A stretch of 64,000 bases of DNA from the NCBI RefSeq assembly GCF_016907695.1, contig NZ_JAFBCK010000001.1, positions 6,436,001 to 6,500,000 of the forward strand, read 5' to 3'. Positions within the stretch are counted from its first letter, which is position 1. Each line of letters starts with the position of its first letter. The position numbers and the translations under genes are program-made. The notes under the pieces are model-generated. The model had not been told where the DNA came from, did no database searches, and saw only the letters and a list, made by a program, of their open reading frames with translations. This DNA is from Actinokineospora baliensis (GTDB lineage Bacteria > Actinomycetota > Actinomycetes > Mycobacteriales > Pseudonocardiaceae). Below are positions 33,721 through 57,751 of this stretch, piece by piece.

Positions 33721-33820
33721 TGCACATCCCTGTGGTTGGTCTGGTCTGACGTTAGTACCGTAGCCAGTGCACACGCTCGGTGATCGATGCTGATCTGGCG
33801 GTTGCTGCTAGCTTCGGCTT

Positions 33821-35413: not shown

Positions 35414-35416
35414 GGG

Positions 35417-39288: not shown

Positions 39289-39328
39289 GCGCCACGAGAG
39301 ACCAAGTGAACACTCATACCCCGCCCCC

Positions 39329-39789: not shown

Positions 39790-39873
39790 GCAGCCATCCG
39801 CTTCCTCGCCCCGACCACTCACTAGCTCCCCGACTCGTCATCGCCCGAATCCCCACCCTCTGGACCCCCTGAC

Positions 39874-40721: not shown

Positions 40722-40920
40722 TCGACACCGCACGAACCCGCCCCGAACAAGCCACTTCGGGTCCAGCACGACGAGGACGCGCTCGAGCAGATGTTGGACG
40801 GGCGGAGACTCGCCTAGACCTGGAGGCGGTACGCCGACACAGGCGTGGTCAACCCGGACTCACCTAACGCCACAGCGGTCACCCGCTCCACCGTAGCGAA
40901 GCCAGCGGACGCGCGGATCC

Positions 40921-41010
40921 GGTCGCGGTCGTGCCGTGCTGGTGGAGCCAATAGGCGAGTGCGGGCCCAGCGATGCTGGCGCCGGAGATCAGGACGGCGC
41001 GGGACGTGGG
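40921..41010 (-). pseudogene. FAD-dependent monooxygenase, N-terminal remnant
   Basis: On the minus strand about 28 residues (SRAVLISGASIAGPALAYWL followed by HQHGTTAT) match the conserved N-terminal FAD-binding fold of aromatic-ring FAD monooxygenases, after which homology stops. It lies downstream of the DHA2 transporter on the same strand. The rest of the enzyme (about 370 residues) is absent. The remainder of the 40722-41038 gap shows nothing recognisable. Confidence 0.7.
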
Positions 41011-41038
41011 TGTCCTCCTCGAGGAGTGGCGGCGGGGC

Positions 41039-41079
41039 CTGATCATGGGCACCGGGTGGTGACCGGTGCCCATGATCAG
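41039..41079 (-). terminator. Perfect 17-bp stem-loop at end of DHA2 transporter gene
   Basis: CTGATCATGGGCACCGG (41039-41055) and its exact reverse complement (41063-41079) surround a seven-base loop. The stem includes the transporter's TGA stop. No U-tract follows on the minus strand. Confidence 0.85.
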
Positions 41080-42599
41080 CGGGAGCCGTCGGCGGTCCGG
41101 GGCGCTGGCGCGGCGCTCGCCAGCGTGGTGTCCGCGTCCACGATGTCCGCCGGTGTCGTGGTGTCGGTATCGGCGGCGAGGTCCGCGTCGTCGGGGCGGG
41201 CGCGACGGGGGAACAGCGGTGAGATGAGCAGGAACAGTCCGATGACGATCGCCTGGACCACGAGGGCGTCACGGAAGCTCTCGGTCGCCGCACCGCTGAG
41301 GGCGCCTGCGAAGAACACGGTGCTGAACACCGCGACACCGACCGAGCCGCCGATGGACTGGACCGCGGACAGGACGCCGGAGGCGGAGCCGACCTCATCG
41401 TCATCGACGGCGCCGAGCACGGTGTTGAACACCGCGGCGATCACGATGCCCGCGCCGATACCGGCGACAGCGCTGCCGGGCACGATCTGCCAGATCGTGA
41501 AGTCCGTGGTGTCGGCCAGGGCGAGCCACAGCCAGGCGACACCGGCGAACTGGACGATGGCCCCGGCTTGCAGCACCCTGCGGCCGAGTTTGGCGGCGAG
41601 CAGGCCTCCGCTGATGCCGCCGCCGACGGCGGTTCCCAGTGCGACCGGGAGGTTGCCCAGCCCGGCCTGTCCGGCGGTGAACCCCTGGCCGATCTGCAGG
41701 AAGAACGTGAGCACCAACTGGGTGCCGATCAGCCCGCCGAAGAACAACGCGACCGCGACCAGTCCGACGGTGAACGCGGGTTTGCCGAACAGGGCCGGGG
41801 TGACCAGCGGATCGCGGTCCAGGCGCACGACCCGGCGCTGCCACAGCGCGAATCCGACGTAGCCGAGCGCGGCGGCGGACAGCGAAAGCCACGTCCACAA
41901 CGGCCATCCCGCGGCCTGTCCCTCGTTGAGCGGAAGGACCAGCAGCGCGGACGCGGCAGCGACAAGCACGGCTCCGACGACGTCCACGCGCAGCGTCCTG
42001 GTCCCGCCGCCGCGGGGCACCAGCCGCCAGGCGAACACCAATGCCACTAGACCGACCGGGACGTTGACCAGGAACACCAGCCGCCAGCCGAGACCGAACA
42101 GGTCCCAGTCGACCAGCGCGCCACCCAGTACCGGGCCAAGGACACCGCCGAGCCCCAGTACCGGCCCGAAGATCGCGAGGGCCTTGGTGAGGTCGCGGGG
42201 AGCCAGGTTGTCGCGCAGGATGCCGAGGCCCTGCGGCAGCATCATCGCCCCCGCCACACCCTGGACGAGGCGGAGGGTGATCAGCAGGCCGACGCTCGGC
42301 GCGATCGCGCACAGGAGCGACGCGACGGTGAAGGCCACGAGGCCGAACAGGAACATCGGGCGGCGGCCGTAGCGGTCGCCGAGCCGCCCGCCGAGCACGA
42401 GGCCCGCGCCGAGGGTCAGGGCGTAGCCGCCGATCACCCACTGCAAGCCGACCGGGCTCGAATCCAGCGACTTCTCCAGCGACGGGCCCGCCACGTTGAC
42501 GATCGTCGAGTCGAGCAGATCCATCAGCTCGACGACGAGCACCGTGGCCAGCAGCCACCACACCGCCTTCCGCGACATCTTCTTCTCGGGTACAGACAT
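41076..42599 (-). CDS. DHA2-family MFS drug exporter
   Basis: The 507-residue membrane protein has about fourteen hydrophobic segments, the DHA2 layout. Motifs: LDSTIVNVAGPSL (motif D1) in TM1, GGRLGDRYGRRPMF (motif A) after TM2, LRLVQGVAGAMMLPQGLGIL (motif B/C region) in TM4-5. It exports drugs or toxic metabolites using the proton gradient. ATG at 42599 has a GGAG ribosome site six bases away. It lies 127 bases downstream of a MarR gene on the same strand and is probably controlled by it. An FAD monooxygenase remnant follows. Confidence 0.92.
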   Translation of the reverse strand: MSVPEKKMSRKAVWWLLATVLVVELMDLLDSTIVNVAGPSLEKSLDSSPVGLQWVIGGYALTLGAGLVLGGRLGDRYGRRPMFLFGLVAFTVASLLCAIAPSVGLLITLRLVQGVAGAMMLPQGLGILRDNLAPRDLTKALAIFGPVLGLGGVLGPVLGGALVDWDLFGLGWRLVFLVNVPVGLVALVFAWRLVPRGGGTRTLRVDVVGAVLVAAASALLVLPLNEGQAAGWPLWTWLSLSAAALGYVGFALWQRRVVRLDRDPLVTPALFGKPAFTVGLVAVALFFGGLIGTQLVLTFFLQIGQGFTAGQAGLGNLPVALGTAVGGGISGGLLAAKLGRRVLQAGAIVQFAGVAWLWLALADTTDFTIWQIVPGSAVAGIGAGIVIAAVFNTVLGAVDDDEVGSASGVLSAVQSIGGSVGVAVFSTVFFAGALSGAATESFRDALVVQAIVIGLFLLISPLFPRRARPDDADLAADTDTTTPADIVDADTTLASAAPAPRTADGSR

Positions 42600-42726
42600 G
42601 ATTTTCTCCAGATTCTGGTGGTAGCGCCCGTTTCCAGGGCGCATTCGCACGCCGGAGGCCATTCGCGCGCGCAACGAACGCACCCCGGTTGGGTAGGTGT
42701 GGCGGCTTGTCGTCCGCAGCGAGGTG

Positions 42727-43263
42727 TCAGCCTTGGGGGAAGGAATCCGCCGTGTCCGTGTAGATCTGCACGACTCCGGTCAGGAAGGCCTCCACGACAT
42801 CCCTGTCACGGGGGGCCAGCGCTTCGACGAGGCCCTCCACGCCGCGCAGTAGCGGACGCAGGTGACCGAAGAGCCGGTCCATTGACTCCGCGACCGGCTC
42901 GACCATCACCTTGCGGCGATCGGTGGGGTGCGGGCGGCGGACGATGTGCCCGGCCTTCTCGAGCCGGTCGACGATGTGCGTGCTCGCCGCCGTCGAGACC
43001 CGCAGCCTGTCCGCGAGGTCCTTGGCGGTCAGCGGTCCGTCGGTCGTGAGGTGCTCCAGGGCCGCCAGGTCGGTGGCGTTGATCCCCAGCGCGCCGCTCA
43101 GCCGCTGCTCGACCACCCGCGTCAGCACCCCTACCTCTTGCAGGCGCTCCATCACCGCGTTGCCCACGCCAGGGGACTCGACCGGTCGCCTGCCGGACAA
43201 GTGGTCCGGCCCGGTGGCGGGTGGCATGTCGGCGCGACGAGACGCGCGGGCAGAGGAAGGCAT
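42727..43263 (-). CDS. MarR-family transcriptional regulator
   Basis: The 178-residue protein has the MarR winged helix (about residues 65-135; INATDLAALEHLTTDGPLT, LADRLRVSTAASTHIVDRLE, GHIVRRPHPTDRRKVMV) with the DRR wing. Flanking helices form the dimer interface. MarR proteins usually repress a linked exporter and release on binding a phenolic or drug-like ligand; the DHA2 gene is next in the same direction. ATG at 43263 is used. An AT-rich promoter with the palindrome GCTAATTAGC lies 25 bases upstream. Confidence 0.9.
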   Translation of the reverse strand: MPSSARASRRADMPPATGPDHLSGRRPVESPGVGNAVMERLQEVGVLTRVVEQRLSGALGINATDLAALEHLTTDGPLTAKDLADRLRVSTAASTHIVDRLEKAGHIVRRPHPTDRRKVMVEPVAESMDRLFGHLRPLLRGVEGLVEALAPRDRDVVEAFLTGVVQIYTDTADSFPQG

Positions 43264-43287
43264 GACCGATAGACTACTAGGTAAGTC

Positions 43288-43297
43288 GCTAATTAGC
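43288..43297. promoter_or_regulatory. Palindromic MarR operator candidate
   Basis: GCTAATTAGC is a perfect palindrome within an unusually AT-rich stretch (43271-43310) just upstream of the MarR gene start, with flanking TAAG and CTTA. Location and symmetry suit autorepression. Confidence 0.5.
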
Positions 43298-43372
43298 TTA
43301 GTTAAATTGCGTGACGACTGCCACCAGGTCAAGGTCTTCCCCGTAGTGGGTCGACTCCTAGCGTCCGGTCCT

Positions 43373-43767
43373 CATGACGACAAGCCCGTGGACAAGCGAA
43401 ACCGTTGCGGAAGAGGGCAAATGCCGTGCCGGACGTGGGCCTACACGGTCGCCGACGAGGCGGTGGACCTCGGGAGACGCAAGATCAACCGGAGGAGGAG
43501 CCCCCAGTTTCCATCGTAGTGGGGTGCGCAGAGGATGGGCGGGCGGCGAACTGGGCTGCGGACAGGCGACACCGTTGTGGATGGGGCGGTGTCGCGCCGG
43601 GGCACGACGGCGGTGCGGGTTCTCGGGAGATGCAAGATCAACTGATGGGGAAGCCCCCGGTTCCCAGCCTAGTGGGACGCGCGGCTGGTGGGTGAGTGGT
43701 GAACAGGGCTGTGGATGGGGCCAGCGGTTGTGGATGGGGCTAGCGGTTGTGGATGGGGCTAGCGGCG
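43373..43767 (+). repeat. Repeat family B, right cluster
   Basis: Three units in the same orientation as the left copy at 32.3 kb: a 3' partial at 43373-43450 (CGTGGACAAGCGAAACCGTTG), a full unit at 43471-43590 (CGGGAGACGCAAGATCAACC to GTTGTGGATGGGGC) and another at 43624-43720 (CGGGAGATGCAAGATCAACT to CTGTGGATGGGGCC). The block fills the space between the MarR and histidine kinase genes; frames across it are not convincing genes. Each unit carries TGTGGACA/TGTGGAT cores that resemble, but only partly match, a DnaA box. Confidence 0.85.
43711..43767 (+). repeat. Three 19-bp tandem repeats overlapping the kinase stop codon
   Basis: GTGGATGGGGCTAGCGGTT (first copy with CCAGC) recurs at 43711, 43730 and 43749, an exact 19-base period. 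The last copy contains CTAG at 43759, which on the minus strand is the TAG stop of the histidine kinase gene. Confidence 0.85.
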
Positions 43768-45849
43768 GGGGGCTGGGTGGCGGTTGGGGGCTGGGGTGTC
43801 GCTGGTGCGTGGGGGTGGGGCGGTGGGGCTGGCGGGCACGGTGAAGCGGACCCGGGTGCCGCCGGGGTGGTTGGGTTCGATCCAGATCTGGCCGCCGTGG
43901 CGTTCTACTATTCGGCGGCAGGTGCTGAGGCCGATGCCGGTGCCCTGGTAGTCGCTGACGGTGTCGGCGCGGTGGAAGAGGGCGAAGACCCGCTCCCTGG
44001 CGTCGGGGGCGATGCCGATGCCGTTGTCGCTGGTGGTGATGGTGACGGCGCCGTCGACCCATTCGGCGGCGACGTGGACGCGGGGGGTCACCCCGGGGGC
44101 GACGTACTTCACGGCGTTGCCCAGGAGGTTGGCCATGACCTGGCGCAGCAGGGTGGGGTGGCCGGGCACCTCGGGGAGGCGGTCGCGGGTGATCTCCACC
44201 CTGGCGCTGCCCGCGCTGAGCTCGGCGGCGAGGTCGTCGACGATGCCGTCGAGGTCGACCTCGCGCAGGCCGAGGGACTCGTGCGACGAGCGGGCGTGCG
44301 CGAGCAGGTCGTCGATCATGACCGTCATCCGGCCCGCGGCGCGGGAGATCGCCGCCAGTGCCGTGCGCTCGGCCGCGCCGCGGTCGGCGATGAGGTCGGC
44401 GACCACTTCGGTGTAGGCGGTGATGGCGGTCAGCGGCGACTTGAGGTCGTGGGCGACCATCGCGGTGAACCGGTCGAGCTCGTCGTTGGCGGCGGCCAGT
44501 TCGCTGTTGGCCAGCGCGACCCGCTCGCGGGCGGCCTCGCGCTCGGTGACGTCGCGCAGGAACGCGTGGAACCGCCGCTCGCCGCGCCAGGTGAACGACG
44601 CCAGGCTCAGCTCGACCAGCAACCCGCTGCCGTCGCGGCGGCGGGCCGGGACCTGGACGAGGCCGTCGTGCAGGCGGGGCACGCCGGTCTCGGCGCGGGC
44701 GACGAGGCTGTCGTTGTGCGCCTTGGCGAGGCTGGCCGGGATGATCAGCTCGTCGAGGCGGCGACCGGTGGCCTGCTCGGCGGTCCAGCCGAACATCGCC
44801 TCGGCGGCGGGGTTCCACGCGGTGACCGCGCCGCGGGCGTCGGCGACGATGAACGCGTCCGGCGCGGTGTCGAGGATGGTGGCCAGCAGCCGCTCGCGGT
44901 CGGCCAGTTCCTGGCGCTGCGCGCGTTCGACCGTCACGTCGCTCATCGACACGACCGCGCCGAGCGGGGTGCCGTCGGCGCGCTTGAGGGCGCGGCCGGT
45001 GCACACCACGCGGACCGGCTCGCGGCCGTGCGGGGCGATGACCATCTCCACGTCGGCCACCGAGCCGGTGGTCAGCGCGCGGCGCAGCGGGACGTCGTCC
45101 TGCGCGAGCGGGGTGACGCCGTCGGCGGCGTAGAGGCTGTAGCGGTGCGACCAGTCGGCCGGGTCCAGCTCGGGGTCGGGGTCGAGGCCGTGCCAGTCGC
45201 GGGAGGCGCGGTTGAACAGGGTGAGCCTGCCGTGCTCGTCGCAGGCGACGATGGCGACGTCGATGGTCTCGTGGACGGCGTCGGTCAGCTCTTGGCGCGC
45301 TTCGAGGTCGCGGGCGTAGTTCTCGGCGAGTGCGCGCGCCGACTCGGCCTCGGCGGCCAGCGCACTGGTGATCCTGGCGTGCTTGCGCCGCTCGAACAGC
45401 CCCAGCACGACCCGCGCCAGGTCCCCCAGCGCCGCGACCTGGTCGTCGGTGAACTCCCTGGTCTCGGTGTCGAACGCGCACAGCGTGCCGAGCACGTGGC
45501 CGTCGGGGGTGATCAGCGGCACCGACAGGTAGCCGCGGACCTTGCCGATCGCGCCGGTGACCCAGGGGTTGTCGGCGAAGCGGTCGTCGAGGCTGGCGTC
45601 GGGCACGTGCACCGCGACACCGGTGCTGACGACGGTCTCGCACATCGAGTCCACGCGCGGGGAGTTGGCGCCGTCGAAGCCGACCGTGGTCAGCTGGCAC
45701 TGGCGGTGCTCGTCGAGCAGGTTCAGGCTCGCGGTGGGCACTCCGGCGACGTGCGCGGCCACCCGCACCACCGCCGACAGCTCGTCGTCGGCGGGCGCGT
45801 CGAGCACTCCGTACTCGTGCAACGCCGCCAACCGCGCGATCTCGCTCAC
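43759..45849 (-). CDS. Soluble GAF/PAS sensor histidine kinase
   Basis: The 696-residue protein has a GAF domain (about residues 20-155; CQLTTVGFDGANSPR, YLSVPLITPDGHVLGTLCAF), two PAS domains (about 190-310 and 320-440; TAWNPAAEAMFGWTAEQATG), HisKA with His467 in MVAHDLKSPLTA, and HATPase_c (NLLGNAVKYVAPG, DNGIGIAPDARE, GTGIGLSTCRRI). No membrane helices, so it senses an intracellular signal, perhaps redox or light as in related GAF-PAS kinases. No response regulator is adjacent. The GTG at 45849 is used. Its stop codon lies within a 19-bp tandem repeat, and the final ten or so residues are low-complexity Pro/Arg. Confidence 0.92.
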   Translation of the reverse strand: MSEIARLAALHEYGVLDAPADDELSAVVRVAAHVAGVPTASLNLLDEHRQCQLTTVGFDGANSPRVDSMCETVVSTGVAVHVPDASLDDRFADNPWVTGAIGKVRGYLSVPLITPDGHVLGTLCAFDTETREFTDDQVAALGDLARVVLGLFERRKHARITSALAAEAESARALAENYARDLEARQELTDAVHETIDVAIVACDEHGRLTLFNRASRDWHGLDPDPELDPADWSHRYSLYAADGVTPLAQDDVPLRRALTTGSVADVEMVIAPHGREPVRVVCTGRALKRADGTPLGAVVSMSDVTVERAQRQELADRERLLATILDTAPDAFIVADARGAVTAWNPAAEAMFGWTAEQATGRRLDELIIPASLAKAHNDSLVARAETGVPRLHDGLVQVPARRRDGSGLLVELSLASFTWRGERRFHAFLRDVTEREAARERVALANSELAAANDELDRFTAMVAHDLKSPLTAITAYTEVVADLIADRGAAERTALAAISRAAGRMTVMIDDLLAHARSSHESLGLREVDLDGIVDDLAAELSAGSARVEITRDRLPEVPGHPTLLRQVMANLLGNAVKYVAPGVTPRVHVAAEWVDGAVTITTSDNGIGIAPDARERVFALFHRADTVSDYQGTGIGLSTCRRIVERHGGQIWIEPNHPGGTRVRFTVPASPTAPPPRTSDTPAPNRHPAPRR

Positions 45850-47464: not shown

Positions 47465-47492
47465 GGGGGAGCGGTTTCACGGCCGCTCCCCC
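47465..47492. terminator. Bidirectional stem-loop between convergent genes
   Basis: GGGGGAGCGG (47465-47474) pairs with CCGCTCCCCC (47483-47492). It starts six bases after the hydrolase stop and overlaps the last codons of the convergent HAD gene. Confidence 0.75.
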
Positions 47493-48133
47493 AACGCCCA
47501 ACGGACCGCGTCTCCCAACTCGCGCACGACTGGCACGCCAAGGCCTTCCGCGCGGGTTTGGCTCACCAGGGCGCCGCGAGTCGGGTGGTAGAGCAGGCAC
47601 GGAACACCGCAGGCCCGTGCGGCGCGGATGTCGTCGTCGCTGTCCCCCACGATGAGCACGCCCTCGACCCCCACGGCGTCGAGGTGTCTGCGCAGGTGGG
47701 GTTCTTTGCGTTGCGGCTCATCGGATCGCATGCCGTCCACCCGGTCGAAGAAGTGGGCGATCGCGTGGAACTGCGGTAAGGCGACCAGGTGTTCGTGCGG
47801 GTACATCGACAGCAGCGACTGGGTTCTCCCGGCGTCTTTCCACGCTGCCAGCGCCGCCACGGTGTGGGCGTGGAGCCGGGCTTGCTCAAGCAGGTCGGCG
47901 TAAGAGCGTTGGAAGTGCGCGTTGATGTCGAGCTGTTGTTGTGCGGTAAGGGCTTGTCCCGCAAGGCGTTCGTAGAAGTCCGTGATGGGGCGGGTGAAGT
48001 TCTCCTGGTACCCGGTCACGGTCACCTCTGGCAGACCGCTGCGGGAGAACGCCTCTATCGTGGCGCGCACCAACGCGTCGCCGTCGTCGAAGAGGGTTCC
48101 GTTCCAGTCCCACACTATGTGGTCGATCCGCAC
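47477..48133 (-). CDS. HAD-superfamily hydrolase
   Basis: The 218-residue phosphatase-type enzyme has HAD motif I DWNGTLFDDG near the N-terminus (nucleophile Asp with the family-typical DxN rather than DxD), motif II/III region QSLLSMYPHEHL and KEPHLRRHL, and motif IV IVGDSDDDIRAARA. It would hydrolyse a phosphate ester; the DWNGT variant is seen in several phosphoglycolate-phosphatase-like groups. GTG at 48133 has AGGAGG five bases upstream and is preferred to 48157. It is divergent from the methyltransferase with 43 bases between starts. Confidence 0.88.
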   Translation of the reverse strand: MRIDHIVWDWNGTLFDDGDALVRATIEAFSRSGLPEVTVTGYQENFTRPITDFYERLAGQALTAQQQLDINAHFQRSYADLLEQARLHAHTVAALAAWKDAGRTQSLLSMYPHEHLVALPQFHAIAHFFDRVDGMRSDEPQRKEPHLRRHLDAVGVEGVLIVGDSDDDIRAARACGVPCLLYHPTRGALVSQTRAEGLGVPVVRELGDAVRWALGERP

Positions 48134-48176
48134 GCGCGGCCTCCTCGCCTCAGCCACGGTCTGCGATCATGGTCGG

Positions 48177-48887
48177 GTGCGGCGAGCGCAGTCCCGGGCC
48201 ACGGCGGCCAACGTGCGCGGCTACTCGGGTGACGAGGTCGCGGGTTACCTGGGCGACCCCTACCACCGGCTGCGGCTGCGGCACGCGCTGGACCTGCTCT
48301 CCGAACACCTGCCGCGCGGCGCCGTCGTGGCCGATCTCGGCGCGGGCGGCGGCGAGGTCGCGGCCCTGCTCACCCAGCGCGGCCTGCGCCCGATCGCCTG
48401 CGACGTGGTCACCGACGCGTGCCGGGTGGCGCTCGACGCCGGGTTCCCGGCTGTGCGCCTGGACGTCGGCGACCTCTTGCCGTTCCGGTCGCGTTCGCTC
48501 GACGGCGTCCTGGCCGGGGAGATCATCGAGCACGTCTACGACCCGGCGCTGCTGCTGGCCGAGTGCCACCGGGTGCTGCGGCCGGGCGGGGTGCTGGTGC
48601 TGACCACGCCCAACCTGGCGCCCGCCCAGGACAGGGTGCGGTTCCTGTTCGGCCGGGCGCCCCGGCAGGTCGACCCGTTCCACGAGTACCTGCACCTGCA
48701 CATCCGCCCGTTCACCTACCCGCTGCTGGCCACCGGCCTGCGCGCGGCGGGGTTCGTGCCGTCGCCGCCGCGGTCCAACCACGTCGTCTGGCGCACCCGC
48801 CGCCGCGAGTTCCGGTCGCGCTGGGCCGCCCGCCGCTGGCCCACCCTCGGCGGATCTCTCGTCGTCGCCGGGCTCCGGCGGCCCTGA
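48177..48887 (+). CDS. Class I SAM-dependent methyltransferase
   Basis: The 236-residue protein has SAM motif I VVADLGAGGGEVAALL, motif II IACDVVTDACRVAL, motif post-I LDGVLAGEIIEHVYDPALLL and VLRPGGVLVLTTPN, the pattern of methyltransferase type 11/23 enzymes acting on quinones, sugars or natural products. HEYLHLHIRPFTYPLL near residue 175 is a segment common in glycan or lipid methylases. Substrate unknown. A GTG at 48177 is used. It converges on the large TIR-NACHT gene with five bases between stops. Confidence 0.85.
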   Translation: MRRAQSRATAANVRGYSGDEVAGYLGDPYHRLRLRHALDLLSEHLPRGAVVADLGAGGGEVAALLTQRGLRPIACDVVTDACRVALDAGFPAVRLDVGDLLPFRSRSLDGVLAGEIIEHVYDPALLLAECHRVLRPGGVLVLTTPNLAPAQDRVRFLFGRAPRQVDPFHEYLHLHIRPFTYPLLATGLRAAGFVPSPPRSNHVVWRTRRREFRSRWAARRWPTLGGSLVVAGLRRP

Positions 48888-48892
48888 CCGGC

Positions 48893-51800
48893 TCAGAACG
48901 GCTCCTCCGGCGGCACCGCGTGCACCTCGCGCAGCACCCCGTCGAGCTCGCCGACCTCGAAGCGGCACAGCCCGACCGCGTGCCAGAACTCCCCCGCCTG
49001 GGTGCCCTCGACCTTGTACCGGCCGTCCGGGGTCACCGCGGCCGATGCCTCGGGCAGGCCGATCATCGTCAGCCGCAGCCCGCGCTCGGCCACGTCCCAC
49101 AGCCGGGTGGTGCCGTCGGCGGCGCCGCTGGCCAGCGTCCGCCCGTCCGGGCTGAACGCCAGTGACAGCACCCGCCTGGTGTGCCCGGCCATGCGGGCCA
49201 GCACGGTCCCGGTCCCGGCCTCCCACAGGTAGATCACCGCGTCGTCACCGGCCACGGCCAGCACGCGGCCGTCCGGGCTGAACGCGCCAGCCCACAACCT
49301 GCCGCGCTGCGCGGTGAACACCCGGACCAGCTCGTGGTCGGCGACCCGCCACAGCACCGCGGTGCCGTCGTTGCTGACGCTGGCCAGCAGTTGCCCGTCC
49401 GGGCTGAACCGCACGTCGTAGACCCGGTCGGTGTGCCCCTCCAGGGTGGCCAGGCAGGCGCCGGTCTCGCGGTCGAACAGCCGGACCTTCGTGTCGTCGC
49501 AGCCGGTGGCGACCAGCGAGCCGTCCGGGCTGAAGACGATCGAGCGCACCCGGCCGCGGTGTTCGAGCAGCACCAGCACCTCGCGGCCGGTCGCCTGCCA
49601 CCACAGCCGGACGGTGTCGTCGTCGTTGGCGGTGGCCAGCACCTCGCCGTCCGGGGAGAACGCGCTGGCCCAGACGTACTCGGTCTCGACGTCGACCTCT
49701 TGGCCCGAGTGCCAGGTGCTCAACTGCCACAGGTGCATGCCGCCGTCGTTGCTCGCCGTGGCCAGCAGCGGTCTCACCGGGTTGAACACCGCGCCGGTGA
49801 GCTGGTCGCCGCGCCCGGTGAGGACCTGGAGCCTGCGGCCGGTTGCCGGGTCCCAGACCCGCACGACACCGTCGTTGCCCGCCGCGGCGAGCAGGTCGCC
49901 CGCGGGGTTGAAGTCCACCTGGGTGACCCGGCGGCCGTGGCCGTGCACCTCGAACCGCTGCCTGCCGCTGGCCGGGTCCCACAGCCGGACCGCGCCGTCG
50001 CGGCCGGTGGTGGCCAACTGCGCGGAGTCCGCGCGGAAAGCCAGCGGCCACACCGCGCCGCGGTGCGCGGCGAGTTCCTGGGTCTCCTGGCCGGTGGTGG
50101 TGTCCCACACGCGCAGGGTGCCGTCGCTGTCGCCGCTGGCGAGCGTGCGGCCGTCGGGGCTGAACGCGAGGTGGTACACGTTGGTGGCGTGCCGGTGCTG
50201 CAACGCCTCGGAGGTGGGCCTGCCGGTCGGCGGGATCGTCCACAACCGCACCGAACCGGAGATGTCGCCGGTGGCCACGACGTCGCGGTGCGGGTGGAAG
50301 GTGGCCGCGTAGACGTGCCCGGTGTGCCCCTCGAGCCGGTGCGCCTCGGTGCCGGACTCGACGTCGAACAGCCGCAGGTGCGCGTGCTGGCCGCCGACCA
50401 CGAGCAACCGGCCGTCGTGGCTGAAGTCCAGGGTGTAGACGGCCGCGCCGGGGCTGGCGAACCGGTGCCGCTCGGTGCCGGTGGCCAGGTCCCAGATCCG
50501 CACCGCGCCCGACTCGTCGGCGCTGGCCAGCAGCGACCCGCCCGGGTGGAACGCGATCGCCCACACCCGTTCCACGTGCCCGCCGAGCCGGTGCACCTGT
50601 TCGCCGCCGGGGACCGAGCGCACGACGACCTCGCCAGCGCTGTCGCCGTAGGCCACCACCGTGCCGTCCGGGGAGATCCGCAGCGGCCACACCGGCGCGG
50701 TGTGCCCGACGCCATCGGCGACCACCACGCCCGGCTCGCCGGTCGCCGGGTCCCAGAACCGCACGGTCCCGTCTGCGGCGACGGTGACCAACGCGCTGTC
50801 CGGCGGGCCGAAGTCGACCGCGTACACCCGGTCCAGGTGGCCGTTGAGGGTGCGCAGCGGCAGGCCCTTCTCCGTGTCGCACAGCAGCACACCGCCGTCG
50901 CCGCTGCCGACGGCGAGCAGCGAGCCGTCGGGGCTGTAGGCCAGCGGGCGGGGCAGGCGGCCGTCCTCGAAGCCGAACTGGACACCGACGCCAGCGGGAC
51001 GCAGACCGGTCAGCACGGGCTGTCCGGGGGTGATCGCGGCCGACCGCAGTTCCCTGGCCGCGCGCAGCGACGGGTCCGCCACCACGTTGATCAGGGCGGC
51101 CCTGGTCCACGTGCTGCCGGTGACCACCACGCCGCGCAGGTCGGCCTCGGCGAGCCGGGCGCCGCTGAGGTCGGCCCCGGACAGGTCGGCGTCGCGCAGC
51201 ACGGCCCGGTCGAGGCGGGCGCGGCGCAGGGTCGCGCCGCGCAGCGTGGCCCTGGCGAGCTTGGTGCCGATGAGCAGCGCGTCGGTCAGGTCGGCGCCGG
51301 TGAGGTCCACACCGGACAGGTCGCGGTGCGAGAGGTCCTCGCCGCGCAGCACCGCTTCCCGCATGTCGGTCTTGGCCGGGGTGCGCAACCGCTTGCTGAT
51401 CTTGAGGGCGTTGGCGTCGGTGACCGGGTCGCCGCCGGGGTGCGCGGCCCACTCGCGCAGCCGACCGGGATCCCCCAGGTCGCACAGGAAGTCCACGGTC
51501 AGCTGGGAGAGCTTGCGGCGGCCCAGCAGCGCGGGCCTGCCGTCGCCGAGGCCGAGCTGGCGGGCGATCTCCTTGGCGACCAACCACTCCATCACCGACG
51601 CGTGGATGAACCCGAACAGGCCGTCGTCGGTGCGCACCAGCAGGCTGCCCGCGCCGACGGCGTGCGTGGCCTGCGGCGGCGACAGCGGGGTGTCGGCCAG
51701 CCCGGCGAGCGCCTCGGCGACCTCGGCGACGTCGTCGAGGCGCAGCAGGACCTGGTCGGACTCCCACACCCGCAGCGCCAGGGTGGTGACGGCGAACCGC

Positions 51801-54800
51801 AGTTCGTCGACGGTGAACCCCGCAGGCGAGCCGGGCGGGTGCGCGCGGCGGTGCTCGTGGGCGAGCCAGGAGGCGAGGATCTCCTCGTAGAGGCCCGCCG
51901 CGCTGATCGTGTCGCGGGCGGCGACGGCGGCCAGCCGCTCGGGGTCCAGACCCGCGACGAAGCTGAGCATCCTCGGGTTGCGCGAGAGCCCGCCGAGGTC
52001 GTCGACCCGGCCGATCAACTCGACCCGTTCGCGTGCGGTCGGCTCGTCCCCGCCGTACCGGTTGACCAGGTAGTCGTCGATCTGGCTCTGGCTGAAGTCC
52101 TCCAGCAGCAGCACGCGCCGCTGGGTCAGCGCGCCGAGCCGCTCGCCGAGCGCGGTGCGGACCTGGTCGTCGCTCTGGAAGTGCTGGGTGCGGCTGGTGA
52201 CCACGACCTTGGCCCTGCCCTCCGCCGCGGCGAGCAGGGTGGTGAGGTGGTCGGCGGCGCGGTCGTAGCTGACCCGGCTGGCCAGCTCGTCGAACCCGTC
52301 GAACAGCAGCACGACCCGGCCCTCGCGCAGCAGGTAGCGGAAGGCGCGCAGGTCGATGCGGGACTCGCCGTGGTTGGCCAGGTGCGCGGCGACCAACCCG
52401 TCGACGCTGTGCGCCTTGTCCAGCGCGTGCAGCTCGATCAGGATCGGCGCCACCCCCGGCAGCCGGGCAGGCAGGGTCATCGCGAGGGTGCGCATGGCGA
52501 AGGTCTTGCCCCGGCCGAAGTCGCCCATCAGCAGCACGAACCGGCCCTCGTCGGCGGAGAGCAGCTCGACGAGTTCCCCGACGACGTCCTCGCGCACCGC
52601 CGCGGCGGAGGCGGCGGTGCCCGCGATCTCGCGGAAGCGTTGCCGCACGTACAGCTCCGGCGGGTACACCCGGTCCTTGGCGAGCCGCTCGGTCTGCGCC
52701 GTGACGTACCCGCGCAGGTCGAGCAGGCCCTGGAACTCGGTGAAGCTGCGCACCCGGACCCCGTCGCGCAGCGCGTCGGAGCGCAGCGTCAGCCCGGGGG
52801 TGGGGCCCTGGTAGACCAGCTCGGAGACCATGTCCTCCGCGTTGCGCCTGCGGACCCTGGCCAGCGCGGCGACCTCGGCGGCGGTGGGTTCGCCGATGTG
52901 CGCGGCGATCAGGAACTGCGGCACCACGTCGCCGTCCGGGTAGCTGACCCGCAGCACCGGCGGGCGGCCGGGCAGCCTGCGCACCGCGGCCCCGGGATGC
53001 CGGACCTCGAGGACCTCGGTGATCCGGCGCAACAACTGGTCGACCGGGTACTCGTCCTCGGTCGAGCGAGCGGGCGCCTCGGTCAGCTGGGGCCCGGTGC
53101 CCGACGGGGCGGTGAACGCCTGGCCCGCGGAGCGCCAGCGGCGTTCGGTGTGGCCGACCCGGCGCGGGGTGCCGTCGAGCGACCAGCTCCGCACGCCGTC
53201 GGCGGTGAGGTGCAGCAGCCGGGGGCCACCGCGCGGCGGCACCACCACGGGACCGCCGTCCGGCCGTGACTCGATTTCGGCACCGCCCGAGCCGTCGCCG
53301 GTGAGCAGCAGGTTGAGGCGGTCCCCGAGGGTGGCGTCGAGGGCCTCGGCGTCGTCGAGCGCGGCGGGGCCACTCGCCGACGGGGTGTGGCCGACGACGC
53401 CGATCCGCAGGTAACCGGCCTGTTCGTAGGAGGCGAGCGCGGTGGCGAACCAGGCGAGCTGCTCGGCACCCAAGTGGCCGGGTTCGTCATGGGTCAGGTG
53501 GGTGCGGGTGACGGTCGAGTTGAGGGCGGCGACGGCCACCCGCAGGTCGGGGACCTCGATGAGCGACCAGGGCTGGTTCGCGTCGAACACCGTGCCGCTG
53601 GGGTGGATCTCGCGGTGCAGGCGCTCGTAGTGCAGCCACTTGCTGAAGTACGGCGGCTCCGGGTCGATGCTCTCCGCGCGGCACTGCGCGAAGTACGCCT
53701 CGCACGCGGGGCCGGTGATGTCGCCGCCACCCGGCACGACCACCAGCCGACCCGCATCGATGCCCAGCAGGGACCGCAGGCCGGTGAGGAAACCGCGGGC
53801 CTGCTCGAACTGCTCGCGGGTGCCGGAGTCGGTGAGGCTGCCGCTGACGATGACCAGTTCCGGTGTGGGCAGCCCGGCTTCGCCGAGGTGGGCCAGGCTC
53901 GCGTCCACAGTGGCCAGTCGGTCGACCGGGTTCTGGCCGCCCGCACCGAACCTTGGGCCGGGGACGAACAGGACGCCGAGTTCGTGGCGCGGCCCGGAGG
54001 CGGGGGCGGCGGGCGGGAAGGTCGCCTTGGCGGTGTCGCGGCGTGGCGCGGGAATGGTCTCCGGCGACGGCGGTCGCTGAGCGGCCGCGCCGGGGTAGCG
54101 CGGGTTGCCGCCGGGCTTGGCGCGGCCGGTGATGGCGTGTTCGAGCCGGTCGAGCAGCCGCGCCTTGGCCAACTCCGGGTCGTCGATGCCGACCAGGTCG
54201 ACGAAGGTGATCGGGGCGAGCAGCCCCTCGGGGAAGACGTCGGCCACCCGCACCGGCAGCAGCAACTTGGTGTCGGGGCGGTCGTGCGCGGCCTGCAGCG
54301 CGGCCATCCACTCGAGCCTTCCGTACTGCGAGCGCAGGTAGTCGCGCGAGAGCACGGCGATCACCGCGCTGGACTCGCGGATGCCCCGGTCGATGAAGTC
54401 CAGGAAGTGCGTGCCCGGCACGAAGTCCCACGCCTGGATCATCACCGAGTACCCGGCCGCCTCCAGTTCGTGCGCGATCCAGGTGGCCCAGGCGTCGTCG
54501 ACCAGCGAGTAGCTGATGAAGAAGTCCACCGGCCCCGACCGCGGTGGCCTGGGGCCGCGGACCGAGGCCCGCTGGCTGGGCAAGGTTGGCTGGGCGGGCT
54601 GGGGTGCGGCGGGCGGGGCCGGTTCGACCAGTTCGGTGACGGCCACGCCGAGGGCCAGAGCCAGCACCGAGATCTCACCGGGCGTGGCGCCCCTGGCGCC
54701 CGACTCGATGGCGGTGATGGCGGTGGTGTCGAGCCCGCCCGCCCCCACCCTGGCGCACTCCACGGCGAGCCGGACCACCGACCAGCCCTGCCGCCTGCGC

Positions 54801-54844
54801 GCCTCGGTGAGGCGTTGGGCCACATCCGACTCCGCTGGGCTCAT
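48893..54844 (-). CDS. XRE-TIR-(degenerate metallophosphatase)-NACHT-pentapeptide-WD40 protein
   Basis: This 1983-residue STAND-type protein reads, in order: an XRE-like helix-turn-helix (5-75); a TIR domain (105-240; DFFISYSLVDDAWATWIA) with the catalytic Glu178 in SRDYLRSQYGRLEW; a calcineurin-like region (288-560) whose metal motifs are broken (LFVPGPRFG, VSGSLTDSG, VVPGGGDI); a conserved linker of unknown fold (600-730); a NACHT NTPase with Walker A GDFGRGKT (774-781), Walker B VLLFDGFDE (845-853) and sensor TSR (883-885); a helical arm ending FGFIHASVMEWLVAKEIA; pentapeptide repeats (about 1165-1245); and 15 WD40 repeats (about 1295-1935), enough for two propellers. Known relatives sense phage or stress, oligomerise and activate TIR NADase. 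A 2H phosphoesterase gene precedes it by 53 bases. The immune role is an inference from architecture. Confidence 0.9.
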   Translation of the reverse strand: MSPAESDVAQRLTEARRRQGWSVVRLAVECARVGAGGLDTTAITAIESGARGATPGEISVLALALGVAVTELVEPAPPAAPQPAQPTLPSQRASVRGPRPPRSGPVDFFISYSLVDDAWATWIAHELEAAGYSVMIQAWDFVPGTHFLDFIDRGIRESSAVIAVLSRDYLRSQYGRLEWMAALQAAHDRPDTKLLLPVRVADVFPEGLLAPITFVDLVGIDDPELAKARLLDRLEHAITGRAKPGGNPRYPGAAAQRPPSPETIPAPRRDTAKATFPPAAPASGPRHELGVLFVPGPRFGAGGQNPVDRLATVDASLAHLGEAGLPTPELVIVSGSLTDSGTREQFEQARGFLTGLRSLLGIDAGRLVVVPGGGDITGPACEAYFAQCRAESIDPEPPYFSKWLHYERLHREIHPSGTVFDANQPWSLIEVPDLRVAVAALNSTVTRTHLTHDEPGHLGAEQLAWFATALASYEQAGYLRIGVVGHTPSASGPAALDDAEALDATLGDRLNLLLTGDGSGGAEIESRPDGGPVVVPPRGGPRLLHLTADGVRSWSLDGTPRRVGHTERRWRSAGQAFTAPSGTGPQLTEAPARSTEDEYPVDQLLRRITEVLEVRHPGAAVRRLPGRPPVLRVSYPDGDVVPQFLIAAHIGEPTAAEVAALARVRRRNAEDMVSELVYQGPTPGLTLRSDALRDGVRVRSFTEFQGLLDLRGYVTAQTERLAKDRVYPPELYVRQRFREIAGTAASAAAVREDVVGELVELLSADEGRFVLLMGDFGRGKTFAMRTLAMTLPARLPGVAPILIELHALDKAHSVDGLVAAHLANHGESRIDLRAFRYLLREGRVVLLFDGFDELASRVSYDRAADHLTTLLAAAEGRAKVVVTSRTQHFQSDDQVRTALGERLGALTQRRVLLLEDFSQSQIDDYLVNRYGGDEPTARERVELIGRVDDLGGLSRNPRMLSFVAGLDPERLAAVAARDTISAAGLYEEILASWLAHEHRRAHPPGSPAGFTVDELRFAVTTLALRVWESDQVLLRLDDVAEVAEALAGLADTPLSPPQATHAVGAGSLLVRTDDGLFGFIHASVMEWLVAKEIARQLGLGDGRPALLGRRKLSQLTVDFLCDLGDPGRLREWAAHPGGDPVTDANALKISKRLRTPAKTDMREAVLRGEDLSHRDLSGVDLTGADLTDALLIGTKLARATLRGATLRRARLDRAVLRDADLSGADLSGARLAEADLRGVVVTGSTWTRAALINVVADPSLRAARELRSAAITPGQPVLTGLRPAGVGVQFGFEDGRLPRPLAYSPDGSLLAVGSGDGGVLLCDTEKGLPLRTLNGHLDRVYAVDFGPPDSALVTVAADGTVRFWDPATGEPGVVVADGVGHTAPVWPLRISPDGTVVAYGDSAGEVVVRSVPGGEQVHRLGGHVERVWAIAFHPGGSLLASADESGAVRIWDLATGTERHRFASPGAAVYTLDFSHDGRLLVVGGQHAHLRLFDVESGTEAHRLEGHTGHVYAATFHPHRDVVATGDISGSVRLWTIPPTGRPTSEALQHRHATNVYHLAFSPDGRTLASGDSDGTLRVWDTTTGQETQELAAHRGAVWPLAFRADSAQLATTGRDGAVRLWDPASGRQRFEVHGHGRRVTQVDFNPAGDLLAAAGNDGVVRVWDPATGRRLQVLTGRGDQLTGAVFNPVRPLLATASNDGGMHLWQLSTWHSGQEVDVETEYVWASAFSPDGEVLATANDDDTVRLWWQATGREVLVLLEHRGRVRSIVFSPDGSLVATGCDDTKVRLFDRETGACLATLEGHTDRVYDVRFSPDGQLLASVSNDGTAVLWRVADHELVRVFTAQRGRLWAGAFSPDGRVLAVAGDDAVIYLWEAGTGTVLARMAGHTRRVLSLAFSPDGRTLASGAADGTTRLWDVAERGLRLTMIGLPEASAAVTPDGRYKVEGTQAGEFWHAVGLCRFEVGELDGVLREVHAVPPEEPF

Positions 54845-54897
54845 CCGTGCCTCCCGTCAGCCGAACAGCGGGCGCGGAAGGGTCGCCCCCTGCCTGG

Positions 54898-55668
54898 CTA
54901 TTCTCCGCGTGCCTGGCGCGAGGAATGGCTGTTGAGCCTACCGGTCGCATTTCCGCTGTCGAATCCCCCGATCGGGGTCCCCGAAAACGGTGCGTCGCCG
55001 AAATGGGTGGTGCAGGTGCCGTAGCGGCTCATGCCGTACACGGCCAGACCGGGCAGGACACCGCTGAACTCGGCGGCGGGCGGCAGGTCGGTGAGGTCGA
55101 TGCGGAACTCGGGGTCGACCGGCCAGGCGAGGGTGACGTGCGGGTTGAACCGGTCGGTCGCGCCGCCGTCCCACTGCTCGGTGATCTCGTCGTAGCCGAA
55201 GCGGGTCAGCTGGGCGCGCCTGGCCGGGTCCTGGGCCGGGTCGCCGATGAGCCCGGCGACGCTCTCGCCAGCGGGGTCGGTGTCGCGCAACCGGCCGCGC
55301 CGCAACGGTTCGACGGCCGCGACGACCGCGCGCTGCAGCGAGATCCACTCGGCGGTCTTGCGGAAGTACAGCTCGGGGGCGCCGACCGGGTTGTGCCGGT
55401 AGTACTGGCCTTCGGCGACCAGCGCGGGCAGCCCGGCGGCCAGCGCGCGGGTGGCGGCCACGACCGCGTCGACCTCGGTGGTCTCGACCGCGAGCATGAA
55501 CAGCGACACGTGCGGGGCACAGGGTCCTGCCTGGTCGAACGGGTCGCCGAGGCGGAACCAGGACGGGCTGCCGCCCACCCGCATCCGGTCGGTGAGCCGG
55601 TCGCTGAGGGCCAGTGCGGTGTCGTCGAGGTGCCGTGGCAGAACCGCCACGATGTCGACTGTCTCCAT
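54898..55668 (-). CDS. 2H phosphoesterase (2'-5' RNA ligase-like)
   Basis: The 256-residue protein has two H-x-S/T motifs, APHVSLFM (about residue 52) and NPHVTLAWP (about residue 190), the paired histidines that define 2H phosphoesterases (CPDase, LigT, AKAP18-like). Such enzymes open 2',3'-cyclic phosphates, ADP-ribose cyclic phosphates or short 2'-5' oligonucleotides. ATG at 55668 has AGGAG six bases upstream. It precedes the TIR-NACHT gene on the same strand with a 53-base gap and no terminator, so they are probably co-transcribed. It could remove a nucleotide signal linked to TIR activity; that is an inference. Confidence 0.8.
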   Translation of the reverse strand: METVDIVAVLPRHLDDTALALSDRLTDRMRVGGSPSWFRLGDPFDQAGPCAPHVSLFMLAVETTEVDAVVAATRALAAGLPALVAEGQYYRHNPVGAPELYFRKTAEWISLQRAVVAAVEPLRRGRLRDTDPAGESVAGLIGDPAQDPARRAQLTRFGYDEITEQWDGGATDRFNPHVTLAWPVDPEFRIDLTDLPPAAEFSGVLPGLAVYGMSRYGTCTTHFGDAPFSGTPIGGFDSGNATGRLNSHSSRQARGE

Positions 55669-55853
55669 GGCGGAACTCCTCGGGGTGGGAATCGCCCGGG
55701 TGTTGTGGTGGTGCGCGCGCGGCACAGGGTAGTGGTGCGGTCGGGGTGCGCGACAGCGGTTCCGGAAAAGTCGAATTCGCCGGTATTCCCTCGTTTGCTG
55801 CGTTCGAGGGAATGGCTAGCCCATTCCGGGGATGAGCGCGCCCGTGTGGCAGC

Positions 55854-57080
55854 ATGGCGCGCATGCCGGACAAGCCGCTGGATGGCGCCACCACCCGCCG
55901 GTTGCCGAAACTGCACGCGCTGGACTGGGTCGCGATCGGTCTGCTGCTCGCGGGCGGGGCGTGCGTGCTGGTGGGGCTGCTGCCCGCGGCCGACGCGGGC
56001 GCCACGATCTCGCGGCTGGTGCCGCTGCTGCTGTTCCTCGGCTCGGTGATCATCCTGGCCGAGCTGACCGCCACCGCCGAGGTGTTCGACGTGGTGGCGA
56101 CCCGGCTGTCGATCCTGGGCCGCGGCCACTACGCGCTGCTGTTCCTGCTGTGCCTGGCGCTGGCCGCGGTCACCACGATGGGGCTCAACCTCGACACCAC
56201 CGCGGTGCTGCTGACCCCGGTCCTGCTGGCCCTCGCGGCCAAGCTGCGGGTGGAGGCGTTGCCGCTGGCGATGACCACGGTCTGGCTGGCCAACACGGCG
56301 AGCCTGCTGCTGCCGGTGTCGAACCTGACGAACCTGCTCGCCGCCGACCGGGTCGCGTTGGCGCCCGCGGAGTTCGCCGCCCGGATGTGGGCGCCGCAAC
56401 TGGCGGCGATCGTGGTGACAGGGGTGTTCCTGTGGGTGTTCTACTGGCGCCGGGCGGGGGACGCGAAGACCGGCTACGCCATCCCGGGCAGGCACGAACC
56501 TCGGGACCCGGTGCTGTTCCGGGTCGCGGCGGTGGCGTGCGTGCTGTTCGTCGTCGGCATCCTGGCCGGGGTGCCGATCGGCATCGCGTCCTCGGTGGCG
56601 GCGGGGATCCTGGTGGTGGCGTTCGCCGTGCGGATGCGTTCGGCGTTGCGGCCCGCGCTGCTCCCGTGGCGGCTGCTGGTGTTCGTGATCGGCTTGTTCC
56701 TCGTGGTGGAGACGGTGAACCGGCACGGGCTGGCGGATCTGGTGCACGCGCTGATGGGCGACGCGGACGACGCGGCTGGCGCGGCCAGGGCGGCGGGCAC
56801 CGGCGCGCTGCTGTCGAACCTGGTGAACAACCTGCCCGCCTACGTGGCGGGCGAATCCGTTGTCCCCCTTGGCAACCACAACCAGTTGCTGGCCCTGCTG
56901 GTCGGCACGAACGTCGGCCCCATCGTCACGCCGTGGGCGTCGCTGGCGACGCTGCTCTGGTACGAGCGCTGCGTCTCCGCGGGCGTCCGCGTCCCGATGC
57001 GCCGGTTCGTGTGGACCAGCGCGGGATTGGCGGTCACCGCACTCGCGGCGACCGTCGCGGCACTGCTGCTGGTCGGCTAG
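55854..57080 (+). CDS. SLC13/ArsB-like anion permease
   Basis: The 408-residue membrane protein has about ten or eleven hydrophobic segments and the ArsB/NhaD-like re-entrant motifs: LNLDTTAVLLTPVLLALAAK in the first half with TVWLANTASLLLPVSNLTNL, and LLSNLVNNLPAYVAGESV with LVGTNVGPIVTPWASLATLL in the second. It would move an inorganic or organic anion, or arsenite, driven by ion gradient. ATG at 55854 or 55863. It is divergent from the 2H phosphoesterase gene and probably unrelated to it. Confidence 0.85.
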   Translation: MARMPDKPLDGATTRRLPKLHALDWVAIGLLLAGGACVLVGLLPAADAGATISRLVPLLLFLGSVIILAELTATAEVFDVVATRLSILGRGHYALLFLLCLALAAVTTMGLNLDTTAVLLTPVLLALAAKLRVEALPLAMTTVWLANTASLLLPVSNLTNLLAADRVALAPAEFAARMWAPQLAAIVVTGVFLWVFYWRRAGDAKTGYAIPGRHEPRDPVLFRVAAVACVLFVVGILAGVPIGIASSVAAGILVVAFAVRMRSALRPALLPWRLLVFVIGLFLVVETVNRHGLADLVHALMGDADDAAGAARAAGTGALLSNLVNNLPAYVAGESVVPLGNHNQLLALLVGTNVGPIVTPWASLATLLWYERCVSAGVRVPMRRFVWTSAGLAVTALAATVAALLLVG

Positions 57081-57088: not shown

Positions 57089-57751
57089 TCAGCCGGGGAC
57101 CCGGCCGTCGGCTATGGCGGCGAGCACGACCACGGCCGCGTCCACCGTCTCCTGCCGGGTTCCGGGGCGGCGGCGGACCCGGTGGCTGGTGGTGCGCAGA
57201 CCGCCCAGGGACAGGTCGGCCGTGTTCGGGATGGACGTGCCCAGGGCGACGGTGGCGACGAGGTCCTGGCCGCCGGGGATGACGGTTTCGTGGAAGACGC
57301 CCGCCGGGAGCCGGTAGCTCTCCCCCGCCCGGTGCGTGCTGGTCGCGGTGACGTGCGCGCGGACCAGGCGGTCGGTGGCCTCGATGGTGTCGCCGTCGGT
57401 GTCGCTGAGGACCTCGAACACGCGGTGGGTGGGCGTGGCCGCGGCGGCGACCCGGATGGTCTGGTTGCGGAGCTTGCCGACCAGCACCCAGCTCACCAGG
57501 TCCCAGCTGTGGCAGTGCGTCGGCGATGTCGTGGGCGGCGCGACACCGCGGCCGGGCTCCCACAGGTGCACGCACACGCCCTCGTCGCCGTCGCGGTGCA
57601 CCGGCAGGCAGAGGAAACCCAGCGGGTGCAGCACGGCGGTGACACCGGCGGGCTCGGTGACCACTCGGTTGAGCGCGGCGCGCGCCCAGCTGAGCACCTG
57701 CTCGCCCGCGTCGCGCTCGATGGCGTCGGACAACTCGGAGTACAGCGTCAT
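57089..57751 (-). CDS. Cupin-like protein of unknown function
   Basis: The 220-residue soluble protein has two histidine-bearing strands spaced like a cupin barrel, PTHCHSWDLVSWVLVGKL (about 78-95) and PAGVFHETVIPGG (about 150-162), which could hold a metal as in cysteine-dioxygenase-like proteins. I do not recognise the exact family. ATG at 57751 starts MTLYSELSDAIE; the in-frame extension to 57952 overlaps the next gene's promoter. It is convergent with the permease (eight bases) and divergent from the DUF6191 gene. Confidence 0.7.
   Translation of the reverse strand: MTLYSELSDAIERDAGEQVLSWARAALNRVVTEPAGVTAVLHPLGFLCLPVHRDGDEGVCVHLWEPGRGVAPPTTSPTHCHSWDLVSWVLVGKLRNQTIRVAAAATPTHRVFEVLSDTDGDTIEATDRLVRAHVTATSTHRAGESYRLPAGVFHETVIPGGQDLVATVALGTSIPNTADLSLGGLRTTSHRVRRRPGTRQETVDAAVVVLAAIADGRVPG

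Follow-up and report, generated by a model that had tools for sequence, protein, structure and literature searches.

A TIR-bearing STAND receptor gene of Actinokineospora baliensis and the set of partner genes associated with it

A 64-kb stretch of the Actinokineospora baliensis genome (NZ_JAFBCK010000001.1, positions 6,436,001 to 6,500,000; the window), part of one 7.68-Mb contig (genome handle G000), carries a gene for a large TIR-NACHT-WD40 protein of the STAND class (gene A), together with genes for a 2H-fold phosphoesterase (B), a membrane transporter (C) and a cupin (D). Two further genes, E and F, join the set in other genomes. We found that B, C and D are associated with one TIR-bearing version of the receptor chassis. 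On balance, the sequences favor the view that A would be an immune STAND receptor whose TIR product is processed, exported or responded to by the partner genes. The receptor appears to be of a known kind, that of bacterial NLR-type immunity, and the conserved partner set appears to be new.

Results

Conservation of the gene set around gene A

Genes C and D were found by clustering reading frames around B. The four genes of the window are as follows (L and G numbers below are locus and genome handles):

48893..54844, minus strand: gene A, STAND receptor, 1983 aa, ATG start; order weak XRE, TIR, degenerate metallophosphoesterase, inactive restriction endonuclease (REase), NACHT, pentapeptide repeats, WD40 repeats
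54898..55668, minus strand: gene B, 2H-fold phosphoesterase, 256 aa, motifs HVS and HVT, ATG start (motif alignment, fold model)
55854..57080, plus strand: gene C, CitMHS/ArsB-type membrane transporter, 408 aa (Pfam CitMHS E 1e-33, ArsB E 1e-24)
57089..57751, minus strand: gene D, cupin with three invariant histidines, 220 aa, convergent with C across an 8-bp gap

A tree of 37 A loci was built from A residues 600-1130 (the REase and NACHT region). One branch with a support of 100 split the tree into A's clade of 28 loci and a sister group of nine. Gene C was present at 28/28 loci of A's clade and at 0/9 of the sister group. Gene D was found within the fetched stretch at 23/28 clade loci; in the remaining clade members it lay 7-16 kb off (G264 and G444), was on another contig (G522 and G498) or was unseen (L069, a short contig). 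Gene B was present at 20/28 clade loci, a share that is inflated because 15 of the 28 came from the search for B and one more is the window. Among the 12 clade loci not supplied by that search, C was detected in 12/12, D in 7/12 and B in 4/12 of the fetched stretches, the last value being biased low since B-bearing loci had already been removed from that set. Outside the tree were the A-positive genomes G201, G036, G073, G234, G247, G380 and G507, whose context was not fetched, and locus L090, which was too incomplete.

By parsimony, C changed once on this tree and B four times. A repeated joint gain of TIR and C was rejected, given the one change for C; the independent-pairs test, with 2 pairs (p 1), was too small to bear on it.

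In the sister group, four loci (L063, L065, L066 and L070) were scanned with Pfam and the other five with the TIR profile alone. The N-terminus was Trypsin_2 in L070 and a divergent TIR in L063 and L066. Locus L065 has no TIR; it has a phosphoesterase with motifs D, GD, GNHD and GHTH (Pfam Metallophos E 4e-13), in which the His of motif I is replaced by Gln. This TIR-less relative of A (L065:6416-10513) is a candidate active phosphoesterase effector on the same chassis. The B, C and D profiles found nothing in the nine fetched stretches of the sister group, two of which are short (L062, 8.8 kb; L092, 12 kb), and this ties the three genes to one TIR-bearing version of the chassis.

We also considered a 2H enzyme that replaced a phosphoesterase activity lost by A, and this idea was not supported. 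Motif I (D-x-H) of the phosphoesterase is gone in 28/28 C-bearing rows regardless of B, and the GD-to-GS change is seen in only 9/28, those of the Actinokineospora/Saccharothrix/Actinosynnema/Kibdelosporangium group.

Co-occurrence in genus, family and class samples

Within the genus, gene B was detected in 6/16 genomes, and A, D and C (the latter at at least 83% identity) were detected in the same six. Beyond these, C occurs alone in G011 at 64% identity, and a further three genomes have remote C-like genes (34-42%). The family sample contained B in 14/249 genomes and the middle part of A in 25/249. In all 14 B genomes A lay within 2 kb, co-directional in 11 and convergent in three. A profile scan of genome contigs with the B alignment gave 19 loci, 15 of which carry A with its TIR, phosphoesterase-like, REase, NACHT, pentapeptide and WD40 parts. 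These 15 come from Actinokineospora, Saccharothrix, Kibdelosporangium, Actinosynnema, Frankia, Protofrankia, Streptantibioticus and Pseudonocardiales metagenome-assembled genomes (MAGs), in several orders and orientations, and all of them also carry C and D (D in L041 is cut at the contig end). The family-sample and contig-scan counts are not additive, since the two share genomes. The sequence-only reading had staked its proposal on the 2H gene recurring beside TIR-NACHT-WD40 genes beyond close relatives; the pairing does recur across several genera, so a lack of co-occurrence was not what we observed.

In the class sample, A was found in 20/296 genomes and B in 7/296 (one weak, E 4e-30), with A in the same cluster in 6/7. 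Gene C at at least 59% identity was found in 9/296 genomes, seven with A; these C counts are lower bounds because C of G370, G410, G498 and G531 was missed there and recovered by profile. Gene D was present in 15/296 genomes, nine of which have A on the same contig at a distance of about 16 kb or less and two of which have A on another contig; the remaining ones were G481, with a distant TIR-less A, and G399, G506 and a weak G387, without A.

Matches to A without B made up 11/25 in the family sample and 14/20 in the class sample. Within A's clade, B was present in 14/17 (family sample; G021, G170 and G214 lacked it) and 6/11 (class sample), and these clade-only shares are preferred because sister-group matches and unexamined ones also count toward the larger denominators. 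The earlier description of the 2H gene as the dedicated partner of A was not borne out, given the A matches without B and the presence of C in every clade member examined.

Gene order and genes E and F

At least eight distinct layouts were observed, that is, at least seven besides E-D-F-A-C-B, and protein identity between distant loci is roughly 40-60%. At two loci, L058 and L060, the six genes lie in one run of the same direction, E-D-F-A-C-B. At the former, called frames overlap by 4 bp at both E/D and D/F and by 1 bp at F/A. In the window, as in L033 and L036-L040, the order is D-C-B-A, C being divergent from B-A and faced by D; D is flipped in L034 and L035. Other layouts had B convergent with A (L041, L044 and L047), D-A-C-B (L043 and L050), A-C-B with D reversed (L045), C-B-E-D-A (L046), and E-D-F facing C, with C divergent from A and no B (L064, L067, L068 and Nonomuraea gerenzanensis L102).

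Genes E and F were found from 20 profile-searched stretches around A matches and from gene clustering in 59 loci, window included; neither had a match in the 64-kb window. Gene E encodes a protein with two transmembrane segments (2TM) and was found at 13 loci, always with a copy next to D; L068 carries another one elsewhere. It had no match among solved structures, and a marginal SLATT match (E 0.07) was seen in one of two proteins scanned. Gene F, at seven loci, encodes an inositol monophosphatase (IMPase; Pfam Inositol_P E 7e-44 and 2e-36 in the two tested) that keeps the DPLDGT motif in 6/6.

Domains and invariant residues of gene A

The domains of A were located as follows:

54629..54820, minus strand: residues 9-72, weak XRE-type helix-turn-helix (Pfam HTH_31 E 1.7e-4, 22.3 bits, below the gathering score of 27)
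54173..54523, minus strand: residues 108-224, TIR domain including Glu178 (Pfam TIR_2 E 3e-31)
53165..53992, minus strand: residues ~285-560, metallophosphoesterase-like, metal-ligand motifs lost (NCBIfam DS9_1 and motif alignments)
52715..53041, minus strand: residues 602-710, NA-iREase3, a NACHT-associated inactive restriction endonuclease fold (Pfam E 6e-33)
52064..52543, minus strand: residues ~768-927, NACHT NTPase with Walker A and B (Pfam NACHT E 9e-11)
51074..51373, minus strand: residues ~1158-1257, pentapeptide repeats (NCBIfam models and precomputed Pfam list)
49070..50968, minus strand: residues ~1293-1925, 15 WD40 units, probable sensor (units counted by eye)

The five-domain layout given by the sequence-only reading held for the TIR, NACHT, pentapeptide and 15 WD40 parts, and its XRE domain proved weaker than claimed, scoring under the HTH_31 threshold. 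That reading had overlooked the two linker domains, the degenerate metallophosphoesterase and NA-iREase3, as well as the adjoining genes C and D. Several NCBIfam models matched the pentapeptide region (best E 8e-16), every one under its curated cut-off, and PF00805 is in the precomputed Pfam list for A. Pfam passed 11 WD40 stretches individually, versus 15 units by eye. The protein has the architecture of bNACHT/STAND receptors, an effector followed by NACHT with Walker A and B and by sensor repeats, and its TIR domain has the Glu of TIR NADases. The TIR gave weak matches to solved TIR structures (best E 2e-6), and residues 1-1150 matched no solved chain at E 1e-5.

Walker A (GDFGRGKT) begins at residue 774 and Walker B (VLLFDGFD) at 845. 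In an alignment of A with the best 119 of 262 homologues found, Glu178, Walker A Lys780, Walker B Asp849, Asp852 and Glu853 were identical in 120/120. This identity indicates that the TIR and the NTPase, as judged from the alignment, are under constraint, and it upholds the earlier call of Glu178 and of intact Walker motifs. Glu178 is presumably the catalytic TIR residue, as we assigned it by motif position.

The metallophosphoesterase-like domain gave a different picture. In the same alignment, Asp and His of motif I were absent in 120/120, and the motif II Asp was kept in 94/120. In A of the window, GS replaces GD and GGG replaces GNH, and the ligands of an active metallophosphoesterase (D-x-H, GD, GNH, GHxH) are not in place. 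The segment had no match to PF00149 in Pfam, and NCBIfam DS9_1 matched residues 327-486 at E 2.6e-9 (36.5 bits, cut-off 420). Because motif I is lost throughout, the domain looks inactive across the aligned homologues.

The 2H-fold enzyme of gene B

Gene B lies 53 bp upstream of A on the same strand and is conserved in five congeners from the ATG at 55668 onward. In an alignment of B with the best 120 of 191 homologues, HVS was present in 120/121 rows (one gapped) and HVT in 121/121; the family also shows conserved YRHNP, GAPE and EPLRRGRLR stretches. The window protein scored 17.4 against Pfam 2_5_RNA_ligase2 (PF13563), under the gathering score of 27, and several of the listed homologues carry PF13563. 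The predicted structure shows a 2H fold of the LigT/CPDase kind. Gap, motifs and modeled fold thus agree with the 2H gene that had been placed directly upstream of A. A weak profile match to the 2H domain of rotavirus VP3 (E 0.009) supports the fold only. The top structural neighbors, a plant cyclic phosphodiesterase (CPDase), drCPDase, YjcG and TT0787, were tied, so the structure does not single out a substrate.

The substrates of known 2H enzymes are phosphodiesters or cyclic phosphates with a free hydroxyl beside them. On this chemistry, the earlier proposal that B clears a cyclic ADP-ribose (cADPR) signal is chemically doubtful and is held less likely. More suitable candidates than cADPR would be a 2',3'-cyclic nucleoside monophosphate (2',3'-cNMP), a 2',5'-linkage or a cyclic phosphate of ADP-ribose.

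The transporter, the cupin and the B-C intergenic region

Gene C passed the Pfam CitMHS gathering score (117 bits vs 31.9) and matched solved ArsB (10tp, E 9e-27). Its scores against the NCBIfam ArsB models (139, 114 and 104) were under the cut-offs of 457, 415 and 760. IT-type motifs were kept in 14/14, and since these transport motifs are retained, C probably functions as a transporter and as the chief partner at the membrane. The three histidines of gene D were invariant in 14/14. Its model (predicted local distance difference test score, pLDDT, 89.9) is a cupin whose neighbors include thiol dioxygenases such as YubC; other cupins score nearly as high.

An inverted repeat lies in the 185 bp that separate the divergent genes B and C:

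55809..55827, no strand: inverted repeat GGAATGG-GCTAG-CCATTCC, candidate operator

A similar repeat was found in 4/6 Actinokineospora, one with paired changes, and was absent in two. Among shuffles of the region, 159/1000 contained a 7+7 repeat and 15/1000 reached the window's count of three. As an operator for the XRE domain the repeat was kept as a weak lead only.

Other features of the window

Just beyond the 3' end of A are a HAD-type phosphatase (47477-48157, minus strand) and a class I methyltransferase (47982-48887, plus strand), whose starts are unsure because the called frames overlap. Methyltransferase relatives occupy the same place in Actinokineospora and Saccharothrix loci and lie beside B in Protofrankia L043. 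Positions 32000-44000 have a lower G+C content (65.5-69% vs 70-75% elsewhere) and hold an HTH-TPR regulator (35417-36697) and other genes of unrelated families. A 437-aa protein (6470-7783, minus strand) has a glycine-rich N-terminal repeat pattern, resembling that of actinomycete STAND/TPR proteins, and a marginal Sel1 match just under the cut-off.

Discussion

STAND receptors combine a sensor, a NACHT and an effector (PMC12169576), and A resembles bNACHT/Avs-type STAND proteins in its N-terminal effector, central NACHT and C-terminal sensor repeats (PMC12169576). Exchange of effectors on one chassis, as in that group, is also seen among the relatives of A: a near-intact phosphoesterase is present in one relative, and degenerate remains of it lie behind TIR or trypsin in others. 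What sets A apart is a pair of inert enzyme-like domains placed between its effector and its NACHT, along with a conserved set of partner genes that numbers up to five. Conflict systems of the STAND and related kinds carry TIR, calcineurin-type phosphoesterase or trypsin domains interchangeably as N-terminal effectors, as A and its relatives do, and a related conflict system has 2TM SLATT partners (PMC8195603, PMC7159879). The terms '2H phospho' and 'cupin' have 0 occurrences in the texts of these two papers, and the excerpts of them mention no IMPase or CitMHS/ArsB transporter.

Thoeris consists of a TIR enzyme with separate partner genes. The A set is alike in this respect and differs in having its TIR on the same chain as a STAND sensor; Pfam recognized neither SIR2 nor SLOG nor Macro domains in B, C and D of the window or in representatives of E and F, the remaining neighbors having been partly scanned. 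Compared with plant Appr>p CPDase, LigT and phage Acb1, B forms its own 2H family tied to a STAND gene, and it is host-encoded rather than a phage counter-measure like Acb1. Gene C is related to the ArsB arsenite efflux pump in sequence and motifs and lies far under the ArsB subfamily cut-offs. A combined-term literature search found no paper on A with its partner set, a weak absence since most subscription journals lie outside it.

Carriage on mobile elements was considered and rejected. No relatives of B were found among 50,697 phage and 72,556 plasmid records. A matched 14 records of the plasmid collection, 13 of them over 19-24% of the query (the TIR part), and the only fuller match was an 11.85-Mb Nonomuraea record that is evidently a chromosome.

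If A is an immune receptor with partner genes, its WD40 propellers may sense an invader, upon which the NACHT NTPase, as is usual in its family, would oligomerize. The clustered TIR domains would then cleave NAD+ or another nucleotide, as the TIR_2 match and the invariant Glu suggest. The metallophosphoesterase-like and REase-like domains, the former with its ligands lost, would serve as inert linkers and are probably relics of earlier effectors. The receptor would work with the linked gene set, C in each clade member examined, D in most, and B, E and F by lineage. C would most likely export the TIR product or respond to it at the membrane. B and F, whose motifs look intact, might trim a cyclic or 2'-phosphate from the TIR product or from a by-product such as 2',3'-cNMP; enzymes of the 2H and IMPase types can act successively on cyclic and 2'- or 3'-phosphates. 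Such trimming might limit or shape the response, which is the weakest step of the scheme. A processing role for B and F is proposed by analogy with the plant phosphodiesterase NUDT7, which cleaves 2',3'-cAMP/2',3'-cGMP and suppresses TIR-triggered cell death (PMC9153377).

Several observations weigh against an immune receptor that works with these partners. The association with C is a single change on the tree, and therefore one event and not repeated gains. B was missing from 3/17 and 5/11 clade members (family and class samples) and is thus not essential. B was also found without A in L042 (an Acidimicrobiales MAG), L048 (Mycolicibacterium sediminis), L049 (Nocardia alni) and L051 (a 3.3-kb Frankia contig), and G429 has B with a shortened C, tblastn showing no trace of A in 16 kb. 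C occurs without A at at least 59% identity in G343 and G454 and at 64% in G011, and D stands beside E with no nearby A in G399, G506 and G481; parts of the gene set can thus live alone. PADLOC recognized none of B, C, D and F, and one of two E proteins gave a stray Cas3d match (E 6e-4).

Separately, Mycolicibacterium sediminis (L048:9944-13217) has B (43% identity) and, next after it, a transporter resembling C (35%); A, D, E and F were not found in the 20.7-kb stretch, and a B-C pair can thus stand alone. Loci with E-D(-F) (L082, L083, L088 and L089) and one with C alone (L074) lie near uvrB, and L074, L082 and L083 also lie near coaE (names by eye), so that a single chromosomal site may retain varying subsets of the gene set.

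The partner genes could instead be antidotes or maintenance functions against a leaky TIR, with A alone being a complete NAD+-depleting suicide device. We regard this as rather unlikely. B varies by lineage, as a tolerance gene would, and TIR-like DUF4062 NADases are reported to work via NAD+ depletion (PMC13174449); against this, C is kept throughout A's clade, and three to five partners seem, in our judgement, many for mere tolerance. It is unlikely, too, that the set is a metabolic or transport cassette for oxyanions or organophosphates with A as its regulator and no immune receptor. The ArsB-type motifs of C and its match to solved ArsB, the likeness of D to thiol dioxygenases and the IMPase nature of F with its DPLDGT motif would suit such a cassette, and the source name 'High-affnity carbon uptake protein Hat/HatR' is on a few of the A relatives listed. 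The invariance of the TIR Glu and NTPase motifs in the 120-row alignment speaks against it, as do the distance of C from the ArsB subfamilies and the exchange of effectors on one chassis, like that of the STAND conflict proteins of PMC8195603.

We consider it quite improbable that B is an RNA-end healing enzyme that mends 2',3'-cyclic phosphate termini left by nuclease attack and has its place in the locus only incidentally. Its fold is LigT/CPDase-like, and 2H enzymes commonly open RNA 2',3'-cyclic phosphates and leave a 2'-phosphate (PMC9503650), yet B stays with A and C across rearrangements. No RNA ligase, KptA or polynucleotide kinase was recognized among the recurrent neighbor clusters, few of which were scanned for families. 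Synteny inherited by chance in one lineage would account for some flanking genes also being shared within Actinokineospora; it is extremely improbable and already contradicted by the many layouts, and the low identity between distant loci and the co-directional run with overlapping called frames argue against it as well.

Descriptions of bacterial STAND receptors usually treat them as devices made of a single protein. A transporter and small-molecule enzymes have been kept with A through many rearrangements, which suggests that the TIR output of this class has a processing and membrane step that is not named in the literature searched. A more specific and tentative possibility, to which we give a low probability, is a six-part actinomycete TIR system in which a nucleotide is trimmed by the 2H enzyme and then by the IMPase, modified by the cupin, and exported or sensed by the transporter and the 2TM protein. 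If true, the six-part system would be a bacterial counterpart of plant TIR signaling with its NUDT7 brake. The gene set makes two questions testable, namely, which products bacterial TIR-STAND proteins make and how the response is stopped.

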